This document shows positions 10,930-45,194 of a stretch of DNA of 46,963 bases, piece after piece. Within the stretch, counting starts at the first letter, position 1; every line of letters begins with the position of its first letter. The translations under genes and the position numbers were made by a program. The notes under the pieces were generated by a model. The model was not told where the DNA came from. It saw only the letters and a list, made by a program, of their open reading frames with translations, and ran no database searches. Origin of the DNA: Pseudarcicella sp. (lineage in GTDB: Bacteria; Bacteroidota; Bacteroidia; Cytophagales; Spirosomataceae); NCBI GenBank assembly GCA_017988135.1, contig JAGNSI010000002.1, positions 1 to 46,963 of the forward strand, in the 5' to 3' direction.

Positions 10930-13227
10930 TTATTGAATTTTTAATTTTCGAGTTAAAGAGTCTTTTTTAGCTACAACTTTTAAAAAATAAAAGCCTTTTC
11001 TAAGATTCTCTGAAAAATAATATTTATGTCTTGCACTTCCTTTTTTTATTAGTAAACCATTTGAATCGGTAAATCTGAAAGTGAAATCTCCTGGCGTTAC
11101 GATATAAAATTTGCCATCTGAAGGATTTGGGTACACTTTTATGGCTATTTCATTTATAGTTGGATCGGGGCTTGCTATTACGCTTTTTATTTCAAAATCA
11201 CTAGTTGTTGTGGAAGAGTCGCCGTCATTATCAATAGCAACAGCTTTTAATTGATAATCACCTACTGCAAATGCTTTATTCGGAGTTAGTTTAGCGATGT
11301 CAGACCATTGAAAAGGAGCTGTAGTGGAAGTGCCTATTTGGTCGTCATTCAGGTATAATTTTACAGTTTGAATAGACCCGCCTGTATCTAAAGCATTCAC
11401 TTTTACATTCACTATTTGATTGGTCAAATAACTACTTTCAAGGATAGGCTCTGTAATTTTCACAAAAGGTGATCTTTTTGGTGGCAATATTGTTACCAAT
11501 GTTGTTGCTATGGTAGAATCTCCTTTATTGTCATATGCTATTACTTTTATTTGTTGTTCTCCCACGGGAAGAGCTGTCAGGTTTACCTGACTAGCTATAT
11601 TTTCCCATTCATAAGGCACATCTTTCAACTGATTATTGAAAAGTACATTGTTAAAGTAAGCTTTCACTTTTATCACAGATCCATTTTCATCTGTGGCTGT
11701 TACCTTTAGATTTACTTTGTTTGTAGTTCTTAAAATAGTTTCTTTTGTAGGGAAATCTATTTTTACTTTTGGCGGAGTATTAGTTTCTCCACATCCTTCA
11801 TATTTTAGATCTACATTGCCTTCAGTTGCTATTTGATGTATTTTTCCATCAAAACATTCTCCACCCATTTTTACGTTTTTGAAGTTAAACGATACTTTAA
11901 ATGGAGCATCACCCGTGTATATCCAACTATTACGCTTAGGTAATTTTTCAAAAGTTATATTTTCGAAATTTATGTTTTCTATTCCTACCGAATTTGAGCC
12001 ATGGTATTTTCCATTTATGCCTATCATTCTGTCTAATTGAGTAGCTACATAAATGTTCCTAAAAGTATAATTGCCTACTTTGGGTAAGGCTGTGGTTGAG
12101 CGAAGGTTTATAAATGTTCTTGCCAAACCACCTGATGTTACTTTAGCATCGCCACAATTGGCTTCCCAAGATAGTACTTCACAATTTTCTACCAAAATAT
12201 TGCTTCCAGGTGTGATTTTATTCCAAGCAAGTTGAAACAATCCACCATTGGCTTGCTCCCAAAAAGTACAATTTCTTACTTCCACATTGTCATTATAAAG
12301 CTTTATATGGTCATCGTTTACCTTTGAGAATACATTGCTTACAATTGACCGGTCACCAGCCACAACGCCATCATTATTAAAATCATAACCATACATTTTG
12401 GCATTGTCCAATTTGCACTCGTTGCCAATATCTATACTAAAATGACGAGAATTGATTACCATAATGTTTTCTATAATATGTTTGGTTCCTTTGGTGATTA
12501 CTAAAGCATTGAAGGGGATATTTTCAGGCCCATGAAGAATGCCTCCATTTCCTATCAAAACACCTCTACCTGTTACCAATAATGGTTTGGTGCGATTACT
12601 ACTTGTGTGCAAAGTACCTTTTACCATTGCTCCGTCTTCTATAACTACAGCGTCTACATCATTGGGTATAGAAAATCTGTCAAATTCGGCTGTTTGTACA
12701 TAGGGTTTGTTGCTAGCAACAAATGTATGTACTTTTGCACCAGCAGGGATAGGAGTATCTGCAAATGGATCTACAAAAACCATTAATGGATATTCTGTTT
12801 TTCCTTCAAATTCAACAAAAAGATGTTTTTTTACAGACGGACAAGTGATTTCTAAAGCCCCATCAACAATACTTGAGCTCACGTCTGTATAAGTTTTGTT
12901 TTTGTATTGAGCATTTTCTTCTGTCAAAGCTACTCCGTCTACTCTTTCAATTCGAATTTTAACTGCTCCACCATCCGGATTGAAACCAAAGTTGGCGAAC
13001 TGGTCATTTTTGGTTTTGTGTTTTGCAGGATAATCCGCTGGCTTGGTATTGGGTTCTATTTGATAAGTGAATATTTCTTTATAAGCTGTAGCTCCTTGTT
13101 TTACAGACACTTTATAATGTGGCGATAAAGCTAAGTCAGGCAATTGCCTGTAATAGCGCACTTGAGCTTGGCTGTAAAAATTTACCGCCAAGAGCAATAC
13201 AGAAATGCTTTTAAAAAAATTGATCAT
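10930..13227 (-). CDS. GH49-like right-handed beta-helix hydrolase with two Ig-like domains and T9SS tail
   Basis: The 765-residue secreted protein has a signal peptide (to about residue 22) and an N-terminal beta-sandwich (about 30-160). The parallel beta-helix (about 180-480) carries NNDGVVAGD and VNDDHIKLYNDNVEVRNC. In GH49 dextranases and isopullulanases the equivalent three aspartates form the active site, and here they are Asp286, Asp305 and Asp306. WEQANGGLFQLAWN continues the match. Two repeated Ig-like domains (about 490-590 and 595-690) and a T9SS type A sorting domain (VYPNPSDGKFYIV to the end) follow. It should hydrolyse an alpha-glucan such as dextran or pullulan at the cell surface or outside the cell. 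There are no adjacent SusC/SusD genes. A paralogue lies at 42630-45053. Substrate specificity is not determined. Confidence 0.82.
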   Translation of the reverse strand: MINFFKSISVLLLAVNFYSQAQVRYYRQLPDLALSPHYKVSVKQGATAYKEIFTYQIEPNTKPADYPAKHKTKNDQFANFGFNPDGGAVKIRIERVDGVALTEENAQYKNKTYTDVSSSIVDGALEITCPSVKKHLFVEFEGKTEYPLMVFVDPFADTPIPAGAKVHTFVASNKPYVQTAEFDRFSIPNDVDAVVIEDGAMVKGTLHTSSNRTKPLLVTGRGVLIGNGGILHGPENIPFNALVITKGTKHIIENIMVINSRHFSIDIGNECKLDNAKMYGYDFNNDGVVAGDRSIVSNVFSKVNDDHIKLYNDNVEVRNCTFWEQANGGLFQLAWNKITPGSNILVENCEVLSWEANCGDAKVTSGGLARTFINLRSTTALPKVGNYTFRNIYVATQLDRMIGINGKYHGSNSVGIENINFENITFEKLPKRNSWIYTGDAPFKVSFNFKNVKMGGECFDGKIHQIATEGNVDLKYEGCGETNTPPKVKIDFPTKETILRTTNKVNLKVTATDENGSVIKVKAYFNNVLFNNQLKDVPYEWENIASQVNLTALPVGEQQIKVIAYDNKGDSTIATTLVTILPPKRSPFVKITEPILESSYLTNQIVNVKVNALDTGGSIQTVKLYLNDDQIGTSTTAPFQWSDIAKLTPNKAFAVGDYQLKAVAIDNDGDSSTTTSDFEIKSVIASPDPTINEIAIKVYPNPSDGKFYIVTPGDFTFRFTDSNGLLIKKGSARHKYYFSENLRKGFYFLKVVAKKDSLTRKLKIQ

Positions 13228-25977: not shown

Positions 25978-27549
25978 CTATTTGGGTAATAAATAAACAA
26001 ATGGCACTATGCACTCTTCCATAGAAATACCACCATGCTGGAATGTATTACGAAAATGACCTACAAAATGATTGTAATTGTTTGGATAAGCAAAAAAACT
26101 ATCTTCTTTTGTAAAAGCATATGAAGTAGAAATATTTAACTTCGGTAACATCAAACGCTCTGGTTTTCTACTAAAAAAAACTTTGCTTTCGTCTTCGCAA
26201 TTTAAATTTTTACCTTGCTTGTATCTTAAATTGGTATTGGTAGACCTATCACCGATTATTTTTACAGGATTCTGAACACGTATCATGCCATGATCGGTGG
26301 TGATAATCATCCTTGCTTTTTTGTCGGCTATTTTTTTCATCAAATCAAATAACGGTGAATGCAAAAACCAGCTCAAAGTAAGACTTCTATAGCCAGATTC
26401 GTTGGGTGCCAACTCTTTTATCATAGCCATGTCTGTGCGAGCATGAGAAAGCATATCTACAAAATTATAAACTACCAAGTTTAAATGATTTTTGGATAAA
26501 TTTAAAAAATTATCTACCAAAGACTTCCCTTGATTGGTGTGTATGATTTTATTGTAAGACGCTTTTACTTCAAAGGGCATTCTACACTTGCGTAACTGCT
26601 CTTGAAAAAAGAATTCTTCATTTTGATTGAACCCTTCTTCGTCATCACTATCACCTATATCATGCACCCAATGTTTGGGATATTGCTTTTCTATCTCTGA
26701 TGGCATCAATCCCGAAAATATTGAATTACGAGCATAAGCAGTTGTGGTAGGCAATATTGAATAATAAGTAGATTCGTTTTCTACGGTAAAATAGTTTTGA
26801 ATAGTCGATTCTAACACTTTCCATTGGTCGTATCTCAGGTTATCTACCAATATAAAAAACAAAGGCGAATCTTCTTTTAGCATCGGAAATACCTTTTTTC
26901 GCATTATTTCATGCGAAAGCACTGGTCTGTTTATTTTGGGTTCGTTCAGCCAGTTTTCATAATTATTAGAAATAAAATCGGAAAAAGCAGCGTTCGCCTC
27001 TGATTTTTGGCTCAGCATAAACTCTGCCATCGATTTGTTTTCGGTTCTATCTATTTCTATTTCCCAAAACAGTAATTTTTTATATATCTCCACCCATTCT
27101 TGGTGATTGATATTGCCCGAAAACTGCATTGCCAATTCTCTGAATTCTTGCTGATAAGAAACATTGGTTTTTTCTTCTTCCAATCTTCTTTTGTCGAATA
27201 TTTTTTTAACTGAAATCAATATCTGATTAGGGTTCAAAGGCTTTATCAAGTAATCGGCTATTTTTGAGCCAATTGCTTCTTCCATGATATTTTCTTCTTC
27301 AGATTTGGTGATCATCACTACTGGTAGATTAGGTTTCAGTTGCTTTATTTTAGGTAAAGCTTCTAAACCAGTCATACCAGGCATGTTTTCATCCAAAAAA
27401 ACCAAGTCAAATTTATTGCGTTGAACTTCGTCTAATGCATCCACCGCCGAGTTTACGGGTGTTATGGCATAGCCTTTTTGTTCTAAAAATAATATATATG
27501 GTTTTAGTAAATCTATTTCGTCGTCTGCCCAAAGAATGGAATATTGCAT
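25978..27549 (-). CDS. porX: PorX: response regulator with PglZ domain, T9SS regulator
   Basis: The 523-residue protein joins a CheY-like receiver (residues 1-120) to a PglZ/alkaline-phosphatase-superfamily domain. The receiver has acidic pocket Asp9/Asp10, phospho-acceptor Asp53 in FLDENMPGMTG, Thr81 and Lys103 in YLIKPLNP. The PglZ part shows FFILVDNLRYDQW (about 231-243), ILPTTTAYARNSIFSGLMPS (nucleophile region about 265-284) and MIITTDHGM (metal site). This architecture, without a DNA-binding domain, is that of PorX. With the kinase PorY it controls T9SS genes in Porphyromonas, and its PglZ domain was reported to be a phosphodiesterase. The partner PorY is not adjacent. Three T9SS-tailed proteins in the same window support a working system. 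The gene is monocistronic here, with a terminator behind it. Confidence 0.93.
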   Translation of the reverse strand: MQYSILWADDEIDLLKPYILFLEQKGYAITPVNSAVDALDEVQRNKFDLVFLDENMPGMTGLEALPKIKQLKPNLPVVMITKSEEENIMEEAIGSKIADYLIKPLNPNQILISVKKIFDKRRLEEEKTNVSYQQEFRELAMQFSGNINHQEWVEIYKKLLFWEIEIDRTENKSMAEFMLSQKSEANAAFSDFISNNYENWLNEPKINRPVLSHEIMRKKVFPMLKEDSPLFFILVDNLRYDQWKVLESTIQNYFTVENESTYYSILPTTTAYARNSIFSGLMPSEIEKQYPKHWVHDIGDSDDEEGFNQNEEFFFQEQLRKCRMPFEVKASYNKIIHTNQGKSLVDNFLNLSKNHLNLVVYNFVDMLSHARTDMAMIKELAPNESGYRSLTLSWFLHSPLFDLMKKIADKKARMIITTDHGMIRVQNPVKIIGDRSTNTNLRYKQGKNLNCEDESKVFFSRKPERLMLPKLNISTSYAFTKEDSFFAYPNNYNHFVGHFRNTFQHGGISMEECIVPFVYLLPK

Positions 27550-30482: not shown

Positions 30483-32915
30483 TTATTCTATAATTATGGT
30501 CTCAGATTTTGTTCCATTTGGGGTAATTATTTTTAGCAAATATACACCTTTGTCGATTTTAATGTTGAAATTTTCAAAATTTGTAAAATAATTTTCATGA
30601 ATTTTTGTGAATATGTTTTTTCCTTGAGGATTAAAAAGCTTCAATGTCCATTCTGAAAAAGTTTGAGGTAGTTCCACTTTAAAATCTCCTTTGCTTGGGT
30701 TTGGATAAATGTTTACAGGAAAATCATCACTCAAAATTTCATAAGGATCTGAATCTGTTTGACAACCATTTTTTTCAACTCTTACACTGTAAATACCTGA
30801 TTCTATGTTTTTTAGGTATTGCCTTGTTGAATCTAAAATGATTTTACCATTATTAAACCATTGATAAGTGGTGTTTTCATTGCTAGCTTTCAAACCTTGG
30901 TATTGTAATGTAAGTTGAGGTTTCAAAGGTTTTTCTACAATACTTACAATCAAAGGGTCTGAAGCAGAACTGGTAAATTTTCCTTTTTTTGTTTTTACAG
31001 AATATACTCCAGGTCTAGTTATTGTTAATTCATTTTTGGTAGATTTGATTTCATTGTTGTTTTCATAGTATAAATAATCTTTAAAACCTCCTGGAGCTAT
31101 CAATGTTGTGCTTTCGCCATTACAAATAAATGGATTCGTTTGGAAATTTAAAGTAGGTTTTTCCATAGTAAGTAGTACTGGGTCTGACGTATTTGAGCAG
31201 CCATTTTTCTTTGCAATTACCTGATAACTTCCTAGTTCGTTGGGTATTAAAGTGGAAGAGGTAACTCCGTAAATTTTATTACCATTGTGTAGCCATGAAT
31301 TGGTTTCTGGGAAACTCGAAATCAGTACTACTTCATCATTTATTTCTTGTTTTTTCAATGTAGGTTTATTGGGCGATTGGATTGCAGTGGTAGATATAAA
31401 ATTAGTTGAAGCGGTGTTTATGCCACATATTGAAGCACTTACAGAAAAAATGCCTGTTCTATTTACTTGTATATTGTCTTGTGATGAGTAATATTGATTC
31501 CCATTAAACAGCCATTGATATGTGTCGTATCCTTGTGTAGCTTGTAGTGTTACGGGCTGGTTATCACAGAAATAATCATAACCAGTGTTTTGAATTTTAG
31601 GTATTGGAGGCATTTTACAAAAATCAAAAACTAATTCATAACTTAATACTTCTCCTCGAGAATCTCCATACAATCGTACACTTAACTCATCATCTTTGTT
31701 GATTAAAATTTTATCGTTAAAGGTTTCATAAGCCTGCTTTATATACAATAATTCTCCTGATTTACTGTAAATTGAAAAATAAGGCGTACTTAATCCATCA
31801 ATTTTCATATCGAAACTTAATAAACCTCTTTGCGGGATTTTAAGTAAATAATCATCCGAATCCCAATTTTTACCCGATGCTTGTTGTGTGAAAAACCCTT
31901 TATGTAAGGTTGAAATTTTAAGATTTATTTTCTCATTTTTGGGCTCATCAAGGCTTTGTACCATTTGACTAATGGCTTTTTCTGGCTGAGCAAGGTGGCA
32001 AATATTAAGGTCACTTAATAAATTACAATCATAATAAAACAATTCTGCTAAATTATTATATACATTGTTAAAGTTTTGACTACTTACATAAACAACTCCA
32101 TCAGAGATGTCTGGTCCCCCAATTATACAGGCATAGTCTAAGTCAGTTGGAATATTTTTTTTGTTCAATCCTACTACGTAATCTCCGCTCCTACCATTAC
32201 AGTTCACATCAAGATTATCAAACATGCCAAACAAACCAAAATCAATACACTCAGAGTTTTCATAGCCACCAAATAAATAAACACCTTCACATCCACCACT
32301 ATATGTAGTCCTAAGGTCTCTCACCGCATCACGTTTCTCATTTTTCCCTAACAATGAACCTAAATTAAGGAAATTTGACCCTAAATTACTACCTTGATGA
32401 GGGGTGCCAATGGTTATGGCTTTAGCTACATGGTGCTCTCCGTCGTTTTGCCAATTAGATGTATTTTGTAAATATTCTCTGATTGTCAAACCTCCCATAC
32501 TATGACCCAAAAGCATTACTTTGCTAGCTCCCGTAGCTGCTAAAACCCTTGATATAGCCAATTTTAATGCATATCCTTGCTTGACTATTGCAGATTGATT
32601 ACTATAACCACCATCAAACATTTCAAAATTAATAATATATACATCATTGTTACCTAATGGTAAATATTCTTCACAAACATCATTTTTCAGTAAAGACTTC
32701 TTTTCGTCACCATCACAATTTAGATTATAGTCTAGTTTGTTTTTTTCGATTTTTAAATCTAAATCAGACTTTAAATACCTTGAAAAAACATCCCATCTTG
32801 CGCTACTTCCATCGAGCCCATGAACAAGTATAATTGGGTAAGGAATAGTTCTTTGAGCTTTGGTAAGTGATGAACTAAATAAAAAAAGAAGAATAATTAA
32901 ACGTTTAAAATTCAT
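30483..32915 (-). CDS. Secreted lipase/esterase-like alpha/beta hydrolase with Ig-like repeats and T9SS tail
   Basis: The 810-residue protein has a signal peptide (cleavage near KAQ, residue 21) and a PGAP1/lipase-like domain at about 25-340. The latter shows YPIILVHGLDGSSARW (oxyanion region), VMLLGHSMGGLTIREYL (nucleophile Ser139) and IGTPHQGSNLGS. A pre-peptidase-like beta domain follows (about 340-440). About four Cys-containing Ig-like repeats come next, with the pattern Y-Q-W-L-F-N-G or Y-Q-W-F-N-N-G and a -G-x-Y-x-V- strand. A T9SS type A tail (NIYPNPSKGDFKVELPQ to the end) closes it. It probably hydrolyses esters or lipids outside the cell. It leads the three-gene minus-strand set 32.9-29.5 kb. 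The acyl substrate is unknown. Confidence 0.85.
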   Translation of the reverse strand: MNFKRLIILLFLFSSSLTKAQRTIPYPIILVHGLDGSSARWDVFSRYLKSDLDLKIEKNKLDYNLNCDGDEKKSLLKNDVCEEYLPLGNNDVYIINFEMFDGGYSNQSAIVKQGYALKLAISRVLAATGASKVMLLGHSMGGLTIREYLQNTSNWQNDGEHHVAKAITIGTPHQGSNLGSNFLNLGSLLGKNEKRDAVRDLRTTYSGGCEGVYLFGGYENSECIDFGLFGMFDNLDVNCNGRSGDYVVGLNKKNIPTDLDYACIIGGPDISDGVVYVSSQNFNNVYNNLAELFYYDCNLLSDLNICHLAQPEKAISQMVQSLDEPKNEKINLKISTLHKGFFTQQASGKNWDSDDYLLKIPQRGLLSFDMKIDGLSTPYFSIYSKSGELLYIKQAYETFNDKILINKDDELSVRLYGDSRGEVLSYELVFDFCKMPPIPKIQNTGYDYFCDNQPVTLQATQGYDTYQWLFNGNQYYSSQDNIQVNRTGIFSVSASICGINTASTNFISTTAIQSPNKPTLKKQEINDEVVLISSFPETNSWLHNGNKIYGVTSSTLIPNELGSYQVIAKKNGCSNTSDPVLLTMEKPTLNFQTNPFICNGESTTLIAPGGFKDYLYYENNNEIKSTKNELTITRPGVYSVKTKKGKFTSSASDPLIVSIVEKPLKPQLTLQYQGLKASNENTTYQWFNNGKIILDSTRQYLKNIESGIYSVRVEKNGCQTDSDPYEILSDDFPVNIYPNPSKGDFKVELPQTFSEWTLKLFNPQGKNIFTKIHENYFTNFENFNIKIDKGVYLLKIITPNGTKSETIIIE

Positions 32916-42629: not shown

Positions 42630-45053
42630 TCAATTGATAGTTAGTTTTTCTGAGTATGTGCCTCCTTTTTTGGTTTGGATTTTTAGTAAGTAAACACCCG
42701 ATTTCAAAGATGGAAGCATATAAGTATGGTTGTTTTTAGAATAAATATTACTTATTTTTTTACCCATCAAATCAAATAATCCGACTTTATTTATTCCTTT
42801 TTCGCTTTTTATGTTTACATAAGAATGAGCTGGATTAGGAAACACCGTGATCGCTTTTTCATCAGAACTAGGCTCTATTTTCAAGATGTTATTTTCCAGG
42901 AAAACGTTTATTATTTTACTGTAATAAAATTTATTATCGTTTTCAGTAATTTTTAAGCGATAATAGCTATCACCTTGAAGCATTTTAGAATCTTCAAAAG
43001 CAAATTTGGTGTTTTTTTCTTTGGTTCTGTAAATAGCTTCAAAGTTTGAACCGTCTCTGCTTTTTTCAAGAATGGTCTCGCTCATGTCATTTGCATTATC
43101 AAATTGCCAGTTCAAACTTACTTTATTTTGGCTTGCTATTTTAGCAGAAAATGACAACAGTTTCAATGGTAGTGGTGCACCTAAGTTATAATAGTCATTG
43201 GGGCTTGCTACAAAAGTTGCACTCACTTTGTGCGGCTCTGTAACATTTTTGAAAGAAACATGTTGTTGGCGACCTACATTTACACCGTCTACTGTTACAC
43301 TTTCTATTTTATAACCTGCATTTGGAATAATATTCACCACCCTAGTCATACCTTCAGGTGTCAATAAGGTACCCGAAGGTGACATTTTACCATTAGCTCC
43401 TGCTGTTGCCACTACATTATGCAAAGTACCTTCGGTGTCGAAAATAATATTGGAAGTGGTATTGGGATCTATGTCGAAATATGTAGCATGATTGGCTTGA
43501 GTAACCAACACATTGCCAATAATAAGATTGGTAAAACGAATATTGTTTATAGTTGCTTTGTAGTTTACGCCACCAACAGTATGCACAAAGCCTTTTATAG
43601 GTTGTTTTATAATACTACCATTGTTTGCTTTGAATGTGTTTTCGAAGATAATATTTTTAAAAAGAAAGTCTTTTACTTCGCCTGGCTTTGAAGTATCAAA
43701 TACCCTTGCAGGGTCGTAAGTAATTACCATATTGGCGAGCAAACTGGTATTGTCTTCGCCATAAATATTTCTTAGTGTGTCATTTCCAAGAGCAGATCCC
43801 TGTGTAAGCCTACAGCCGATTATGCCTCTGTTTCGACTGTAAGATGCCCATTCAGCGTTGATTACATACCAATTTTCATAAGTGGCTTTGCCTGCACCAA
43901 GGTTGTTCCAACCTAATTGACCAGTTGCTCCATTTTTTGAGGGCCAAAAAACCGAGTTTTTTACTATGTGTCTATCTCTGGCATAGTCGTGATCGTCGTT
44001 GGTTTTTATAAATACTTCTTCAGCAACAGAGCCATTTGACGGTCTTATACCATCGTTGTTATAGGCAAAGCCAATGATTTTTACATTTTTAATTACATTA
44101 TTACTACCCGAAGGCATAGTATGATCTGTAGCATATATTGCCGAAATACCATTAAAAACAGAATTGTCAGAAGCTGTAAAATTCAACCAAGCAGTAGTGC
44201 CTAATTCTCCAGTAGGAGCTTTAGGTTCTCTCATTTCATGCCATCCATAGTCTAAACCTGTGATGATTCCTCTGCCAATAAACTTAAAACCGTCCATTCC
44301 ATCAGCATCTATAGATCCTCTTAGAAATGCTCCGCCAGCTAAATAAAATGTTTGATTATTTTTTGCAATATGGTACCTGCCTCTGTTGCCATGTTGGTCG
44401 GTTATTTTTGATAGTAAATTCCAGTCGCCTGCTGGAAAATAAACTGTATTTGCTGCTTGCATTTGCTCATAAGTAGTTTCTTCAGAGTATACCAAAACAT
44501 TGGGATCTGTTGGAGAAGGCACATTTACTTCAGGTTTGTCAGCAAATATCATCATGCCATGTTTGATGTCTTTGCCAGTAGTTGTGCCGTCGGGATCTAA
44601 ATTTTCTGGACAAATAAAATTCACAGAAATATAACCTGGCACAACATTGTCTTTTAAAATAAATTTAACCGTTGTACCATCAAAGAAAAATGGGTTTATC
44701 CCGAAAGCTTTAGGAGATATATCTACTCTAGTTGCTGGACTTCCGTAAAGTTTTTTTACAGTTATTTCAGTTGCCCCTTTATGTGCAAAAATTGCATAGC
44801 TCATCGTTCTATCTATCCACTGTGTTTGAACACCAGCTCCTTCTGCCGGATCATGGGGATTCACTTTGCCATTGGGTTTGGATAAATGCGTGAAGATGGT
44901 TTCGGTTTGAGATCCATTTTTAACTGATACTTCGTAAAAATTTGACTTTGGGATAGTATTTTCTGACCAATTGTAATTGGTTACTTGAGATTTAATCTGG
45001 TTGACAATTGAAAGTAGGCCAATTAGGATTATTGATTTTTTTATTATAAACAT
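42630..45053 (-). CDS. Second GH49-like beta-helix protein with bacterial-repeat, Fn3-like and T9SS domains
   Basis: The frame is open from a TTG at 45101. I choose the ATG at 45053 (MFIIKKSIILIGLLS), which gives a proper signal peptide and 807 residues. An N-terminal beta-sandwich (about 25-180) contains VNVPSPTDPNVLVYSEET, a linker typical of GH49 proteins. The beta-helix (about 190-530) has FAYNNDGIRPSNGS and IKTNDDHDYARDRHIVKNS, keeping the three aspartates (about Asp334, Asp353, Asp354). The IKLY that follows DDH in the first paralogue is replaced by DYARD. An InlB-type bacterial repeat (about 545-620), an Fn3-like domain (about 630-715) and a T9SS type A tail (VFPNPAHSYVNIKS to the end) follow. 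It is probably a secreted glycan hydrolase with a substrate different from the 10930-13227 protein. Confidence 0.8.
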   Translation of the reverse strand: MFIIKKSIILIGLLSIVNQIKSQVTNYNWSENTIPKSNFYEVSVKNGSQTETIFTHLSKPNGKVNPHDPAEGAGVQTQWIDRTMSYAIFAHKGATEITVKKLYGSPATRVDISPKAFGINPFFFDGTTVKFILKDNVVPGYISVNFICPENLDPDGTTTGKDIKHGMMIFADKPEVNVPSPTDPNVLVYSEETTYEQMQAANTVYFPAGDWNLLSKITDQHGNRGRYHIAKNNQTFYLAGGAFLRGSIDADGMDGFKFIGRGIITGLDYGWHEMREPKAPTGELGTTAWLNFTASDNSVFNGISAIYATDHTMPSGSNNVIKNVKIIGFAYNNDGIRPSNGSVAEEVFIKTNDDHDYARDRHIVKNSVFWPSKNGATGQLGWNNLGAGKATYENWYVINAEWASYSRNRGIIGCRLTQGSALGNDTLRNIYGEDNTSLLANMVITYDPARVFDTSKPGEVKDFLFKNIIFENTFKANNGSIIKQPIKGFVHTVGGVNYKATINNIRFTNLIIGNVLVTQANHATYFDIDPNTTSNIIFDTEGTLHNVVATAGANGKMSPSGTLLTPEGMTRVVNIIPNAGYKIESVTVDGVNVGRQQHVSFKNVTEPHKVSATFVASPNDYYNLGAPLPLKLLSFSAKIASQNKVSLNWQFDNANDMSETILEKSRDGSNFEAIYRTKEKNTKFAFEDSKMLQGDSYYRLKITENDNKFYYSKIINVFLENNILKIEPSSDEKAITVFPNPAHSYVNIKSEKGINKVGLFDLMGKKISNIYSKNNHTYMLPSLKSGVYLLKIQTKKGGTYSEKLTIN

Positions 45054-45194
45054 GAATTTATTTATTTTTAGTTGGAATTTATGAATACAAATGTAATCCA
45101 AATTTAATAATTGTCATTTTAAATAGTATTTTTTTTACATTCATTTTGAAAATTATACTTTTTCATTACATATTTTTAATAGAAAAGTAAAGTC

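Follow-up and report, generated by a model that had tools for sequence, protein, structure and literature searches.

The dextranases and the isopullulanase of family GH49 are the closest described relatives of the gene considered here. Their solved structures (Dex49A, 1OGM; AoDex, 6NZS; Aspergillus isopullulanase, 1WMR/3WWG) combine a two-domain fold with a triad of aspartates and, on the rung that follows, an Asn and a Trp; the accessible part of PMC6723167 gives the catalytic triad of Dex49A as Asp376/395/396. One acid and a pair of bases are what the families of the clan GH-N type have in common, as far as the accessible text of PMC7939477 goes, and the β-helix with this arrangement of acid plus base pair is, in the same text, also that of the GH28 polygalacturonases, GH87 and GH110. 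A search of the literature on GH49 in connection with sulfatases, PULs, the marine setting or Bacteroidota, and on the combination of β-helix, sulfatase and GH43, returned nothing beyond PMC7939477, subscription papers falling mostly outside its scope.

The window that we analysed, a stretch of 46,963 nucleotides from a Pseudarcicella sp. genome, holds two GH49-like genes that are homologous to each other (24% identity over 440 aa, E 3e-18, by two-sequence BLASTP) and that share, besides this core, a T9SS tail (Table 1). One of them, the canonical window copy, keeps the IKLY motif after the Asp pair (NDDHIK at 12301-12318, then LYNDN). In the other, hereafter the target, residues 353-362 read DDHDYARDRH (43968-43997), with NNDGIR upstream of them in the protein. 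An earlier note on this DNA had stated that NNDG and NDDH were kept and then followed by DYARDRH against IKLYNDN, and a reading of both copies confirms it. The same note had spoken of a motif lost by one member of a pair. What we see is a replacement and not a loss, DYAR being the signature of a clade, and the 2.7-Mb genome, when searched, yields six or more GH49-like genes, complete or partial: the target, a twin 90% identical to it on contig C207, two genes of a sister group on C79, a canonical gene on C11 and the canonical window copy. A further short match lies on C58. The group names used below were coined in this analysis: the DYAR clade groups the target and its twin with the proteins closely related to them, DDxYN designates the sister group, and canonical refers to the rows with the IKxY motif.

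Table 1. Features of the two GH49-like genes of the window; residues are numbered, here and throughout, on the 807-aa protein starting at ATG 45053
Feature	Position	Strand	Basis or remark
Canonical GH49-like copy (NDDHIKLY)	10930..13227	(-)	Two Big_7 domains and T9SS tail
Target gene, GH49-like, DYAR clade, predicted to be secreted	42630..45053	(-)	807 aa, ATG at 45053 (likely start)
Signal-peptide-like N-terminus, residues 1-22	44988..45053	(-)	Sequence read by eye
N-terminal β-sandwich domain, GH49-like (modelled), about residues 23-180	44514..44987	(-)	Model and VIA-align spans; approximate boundary
Right-handed β-helix catalytic domain (predicted), about residues 183-541	43431..44507	(-)	Model and structure alignment; approximate boundary
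InlB-like repeat (PF18998)	43206..43418	(-)	Pfam, over cut-off; also aligned in relatives
T9SS type A sorting domain	42636..42845	(-)	TIGR04183 and PF18962
D334 of NNDG, putative equivalent of Dex49A Asp376	44052..44054	(-)	Profile alignment
D353 and D354, putative equivalents of Dex49A Asp395 and Asp396	43992..43997	(-)	Profile alignment
DYARDRH segment, residues 356-362, in place of the GH49 IKxY segment	43968..43988	(-)	
R337	44043..44045	(-)	Conserved in 15/15 DYAR and DDxYN rows; Glu in solved GH49 enzymes
D310, followed by H311	44124..44126 (D310)	(-)	His at 310 in the twin and 10 other clade members
H355	43989..43991	(-)	Tyr in the twin and 9/10 clade members from other genomes
N374 to W382, equivalents of Dex49A Asn417 and Trp425	43908..43934	(-)	Profile alignment

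A TTG at 45101 was considered as an alternative start of the target and set aside because the twin gene has an in-frame TAA there. The frame is open, the N-terminus reads by eye as a signal peptide, and the tail scores well above the cut-offs of both models of the sorting domain (TIGR04183, 41.4 bits against 23; PF18962, 44.1 against 27); the T9SS sortase is itself encoded in the genome (NF033707, 1121 bits against 420). Carrying a C-terminal sorting domain in a genome that has the sortase, the target qualifies as a T9SS cargo on both counts, in agreement with the delivery route that had been proposed for it. That the C-termini of the two window copies differ entirely was well seen as to an InlB-like repeat standing in the target where the canonical copy has two Big_7 domains, and overstated as to the rest, the sorting tail being present in both. 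The stretch of the target C-terminus described as Fn3-like has no Pfam match, and the C-terminal part, when searched alone against solved structures, gave only weak matches to T9SS tails and chance matches. As to composition, the G+C of the target (about 0.37) is like that of its neighbours and gives no sign of horizontal transfer.

The catalytic part of the target has no match in Pfam or NCBIfam, the Pfam GH49 models included, and a single-sequence search finds no solved relative for it; PF17433, for its part, matches 2 of 14 GH49-like family members. It is with profiles that the kinship comes into view. A profile made from five DYAR members retrieves from the PDB Dex49A (4e-14) and isopullulanase (6.7e-14), the next entry, an exo-galacturonosidase outside GH49, standing at 0.11, and a profile of 14 members taken from all three groups reaches AoDex at 1.3e-56 and isopullulanase at 1e-54. 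The canonical window copy reaches such enzymes by single-sequence search (isopullulanase 6e-7, dextranases 2e-6 and 1e-5). A model of target residues 23-625 (pLDDT 84.7, pTM 0.87), compared by VIA-align with the four solved GH49 entries, gives Z 31.2, 31.0, 30.8 and 29.5, with rmsd 3.0-3.2 over 476-487 residues of both domains at 19% identity, the match spanning residues 1-518 of the model; Foldseek also ranks GH49 first. GH28 is not the closest solved structure, as its best entry attains Z 18.8, on the helix alone, against 31.2, and in GH28, GH87 and GH110 the matched span differs by having no GH49-like N-terminal sandwich. For the model of the canonical copy (pLDDT 76.5) the corresponding values are 30.6-32.1 for the four GH49 entries and 23.3 for GH28.

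As modelled, the target is of the GH49-like two-domain fold, with an N-terminal β-sandwich and a right-handed β-helix. The earlier note, which had called the gene GH49-like and proposed a comparison of its predicted structure with GH49 dextranase and isopullulanase, is borne out in this respect: GH49 entries come first, no other family scores near them in profile or structure searches, and the Asp triad aligns with that of Dex49A, the alignment being one of profiles and not an atomic superposition. Parallel β-helices are also common to lyases, and alginate epimerase/lyase and PL entries figure among the weaker structural matches; that the helix is used here for a lyase or epimerase role, and not for hydrolysis, strikes us nevertheless as highly improbable, for these matches cover no more than the helix, at Z 17-18, when GH49 entries reach about 31 on the two domains together, and none of the 20 full-length rows departs from the GH49 triad.

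The triad would be in place, judging by the profile alignment (where the chain numbering of Dex49A is that used in PMC6723167), as D334, D353 and D354, and the next rung retains its Asn and its Trp. It is around the triad that the target departs from the solved enzymes, apart from the InlB-like repeat and the T9SS tail that it adds. After the Asp pair, where Dex49A has Lys399, a Lys is found in the 3 distinct solved GH49 enzymes and in 7/7 canonical rows, and it is missing from 12/12 DYAR and 3/3 DDxYN rows (0 of 15 with Lys); its value as a mark of GH49 is drawn from these rows, and not from a paper naming it as defining. The segment that takes its place in the DYAR clade is present in 12/12 rows, with a fifth letter that varies (DYARD in nine, DYARG in two, DYARN in one). 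Three residues after the first Asp, the Glu of the solved enzymes has given way to Arg at position 337, in all 15 DYAR and DDxYN rows and in none of the 6 full-length canonical rows. The His at 311 has the same counts (15/15 and 0/6), but AoDex has it also, which rules it out as a clean marker of the clade and leaves R337 as the only one of the two. The DDxYN group (L003 and L004 of this genome, and L045) is alike in having H311 and R337 and in having no Lys, and differs in the sequence that follows the Asp pair, DD-x-[LF]YN, without DYAR.

In its accessible part, PMC6723167 lists 14 residues as conserved in GH49 dextranases, among which twelve can be aligned with the target and nine, by eye, are kept (D376, D395, D396, G377, N417, W425, Y269, N481 and N507); T375, W267 and Y463 are not, and W568 and W571 lie outside the alignment. 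We might see in the target an ordinary α-glucanase of the dextranase or isopullulanase type, the loop after its Asp pair having drifted without functional meaning, as Lys399 does not appear in that list, as the fold and the triad are alike, and as the Asn417 and Trp425 equivalents are retained. Yet a replacement that is kept throughout the clade, in two phyla, is unlike drift, the Lys is constant among canonical rows and solved enzymes, and the relatives of the target adjoin sulfatases, GH43 and GH27-like enzymes, a setting by which their loci also differ from the GH49 dextranases and isopullulanase; we regard this reading as unlikely. The target is best called a member of a GH49-like clade of the clan GH-N type, and it is not filed as a GH49 member because the Pfam GH49 models do not match it and the Lys is absent.

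The phylogeny of GH49-like proteins that had been suggested earlier places the target within a well supported DYAR clade, found on one side of a branch with support 100/99 in a tree of 21 rows. The value is still 100/99 in a tree of 23 rows that includes isopullulanase and AoDex and omits columns 303-384, where the motif lies, and DYAR and DDxYN come together in that tree with support 99/99. The twelve members span Bacteroidota and Verrucomicrobiota: two belong to this genome, three (L040, L041, L044) to two genomes of the same order, one (L091) to a genome of the same class, and the others to an Opitutales MAG, Pelagicoccus mobilis, a Bacteroidales MAG, Flavilitoribacter nigricans, Draconibacterium sediminis and a Bacteroidia MAG, these six loci, found by two peptide patterns, being a lower bound. 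Outside the genome of the target, and at the thresholds used throughout these searches, matches occur in 3 genomes among 290 of the order (DYAR being present in two), in 1 among 364 of the class and in none among 394 of the phylum, and a search of 199 other genomes of the family returned mostly T9SS-tail matches (assigned as such by the range of the query) with one canonical copy; these samples overlap. The group is rare and patchy. In one genome (G380, contig C2) a DYAR gene and the canonical copy that precedes it occur twice with equal scores, at 12.9-15.6 kb and 333.6-336.4 kb, near both ends of the contig, as a duplication or an assembly artefact.

Neighbourhoods were compared at nine of the ten DYAR loci from other genomes, those with at least 7 kb of DNA, L053 being excluded as a contig of 3.5 kb. 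A sulfatase is found at seven of the nine (L087, L088, L055, L056, L057, L058 and L093) in a subset of the ORFs, that of L058 having been read by eye from the sequence of the same contig, outside the set of ORFs scanned; at L089 and L054 none appears among the ORFs of that subset, so that one may sit there unseen. About 1.1 such loci in nine would be expected, and the probability of seven or more is about 6e-6, under a null derived from the sulfatase counts of each genome that ignores the clustering of sulfatases with other carbohydrate genes. GH43 genes are present at L087, L089, L055 and L058, and Melibiase_2 (GH27-like) genes at L054, L088 and L089. The link with sulfatases is not specific to the DYAR clade because canonical-type copies adjoin them too, as does L048 in L086. 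In the genome of the target, where the sulfatase matches number 17 and a single L-arabinose isomerase occurs, contig C79 (L083) bears two DDxYN copies that flank a sulfatase, beside two proteins, 733 and 742 aa long, that are secreted and have no Pfam match, and looks like a small polysaccharide cluster. On C11 (L084), the canonical gene is truncated by the end of the contig and a GH43 gene follows.

The explanation that we think probable, taken as a whole, is that of a hydrolase secreted by the T9SS, built as a GH49 enzyme, of the clan GH-N type and of the uncharacterised DYAR clade, and acting on a substrate that is neither plain dextran nor plain pullulan. The protein would be exported by the T9SS and act outside the cell. 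With triad and helix kept, inverting extracellular hydrolysis would be, by analogy, the best-supported reading: one Asp would give the proton and the others would activate the water that cuts the glycosidic bond. The replacement of the GH49 Lys by the DYAR segment and of the Glu by Arg suggests that the substrate is different from plain dextran and pullulan, which makes plausible the altered substrate or activity that the earlier note had advanced. Because the relatives adjoin sulfatases, GH43 and GH27-like enzymes, we infer that a sulfated or otherwise anionic polysaccharide containing pentose or galactose is the most likely substrate; the change of Glu to Arg and the sulfatase neighbours point to an anionic chain, and neither names it. 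Sulfated arabinan was considered and not retained: arabinose genes (L-arabinose isomerase and an FGGY kinase, with a class II aldolase family protein) occur at L088 only, and a search of the literature on sulfated arabinan with glycoside hydrolases found nothing.

The target is a duplicate of the gene on C207. Aligned without a gap along all 807 codons, the two genes differ synonymously at 152 of them and nonsynonymously at 77, with dN 0.048, dS 0.45 and a whole-gene dN/dS of about 0.1, so that both are kept by selection. Synonymous divergence declines from 0.78 at residues 23-280 to 0.20 at residues 545-807, and partial gene conversion of the C-terminal domains may be considered. Homology continues for 86 bp upstream and is absent downstream; the upstream stretch (45054-45140 of the window) is 89.5% identical to that on C207 and holds TACATTTG / TAACTTTG, which we take to resemble the Bacteroidota -7 element TAnnTTTG. 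It is possibly a shared promoter.

Where the twins differ, the target has Thr for Lys at position 286 and Asp for His at position 310, against all ten members outside this genome; at 86 and at 355 (His for Tyr at the latter) it departs from nine of the ten, the twin showing no departure of such strength. The target lies, moreover, in no polysaccharide cluster: its neighbours, of housekeeping and regulatory kinds, encode a coproporphyrinogen oxidase, a penicillin-binding protein, a LytTR regulator and a histidine kinase, and none of the 17 sulfatase matches falls on C84 or C207. Both facts would suit a duplicate that is in decay or has lost its activity, and that may serve as a binding protein, the twin being in charge of catalysis. 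We consider this quite improbable, as the three Asps are intact together with the frame, the signal peptide and the sorting tail, as the low dN/dS concerns the entire gene, and as the target and its twin share the derived changes evenly (23 in the former, 22 in the latter). Returning to an active hydrolase, D310 and H355 are near the catalytic Asps, H355 in sequence and D310 about one turn of the helix earlier, and because the target departs from its clade at these two sites its specificity may be shifted further: the target might act on a variant of the substrate, or bind the chain differently. Positive selection near D310 is not supported: codons 281-320 include 13 that differ nonsynonymously and 11 that differ synonymously (Fisher 0.038), an excess of amino-acid changes that loses its significance once the scanning is allowed for, 37 of 300 permutations being as strong. 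A faster evolution of the target was considered as well: its branch is longer (0.092 against 0.034 in the tree of 21 rows, 0.078 against 0.038 in that of 23), and the counts of changes do not bear this out.

A wider conjecture, for which we would give somewhat less than even chances, is that DYAR and DDxYN make up a new family or subfamily related to GH49, of the clan GH-N type, in which Glu and Lys were exchanged for Arg and a DYAR or YN segment, which hydrolyses a sulfated polysaccharide rich in pentose or galactose, and in which the target, a duplicated gene, has begun to change the pocket once again through D310 and H355. A catalytic domain without a Pfam match in the members scanned accompanies sulfatases and GH43 in several genomes of two phyla; were its substrate found, chemistry of the GH49 type would reach beyond α-glucans. 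The nearly identical twins, with D310/H310 and H355/Y355, offer a ready test of the roles of pocket residues. Elsewhere in the window, a response-regulator receiver fused to a PglZ domain (25978-27549) is presumably of the PorX type, a regulator of the T9SS, and a secreted α/β hydrolase with a T9SS tail is encoded at 30483-32915.
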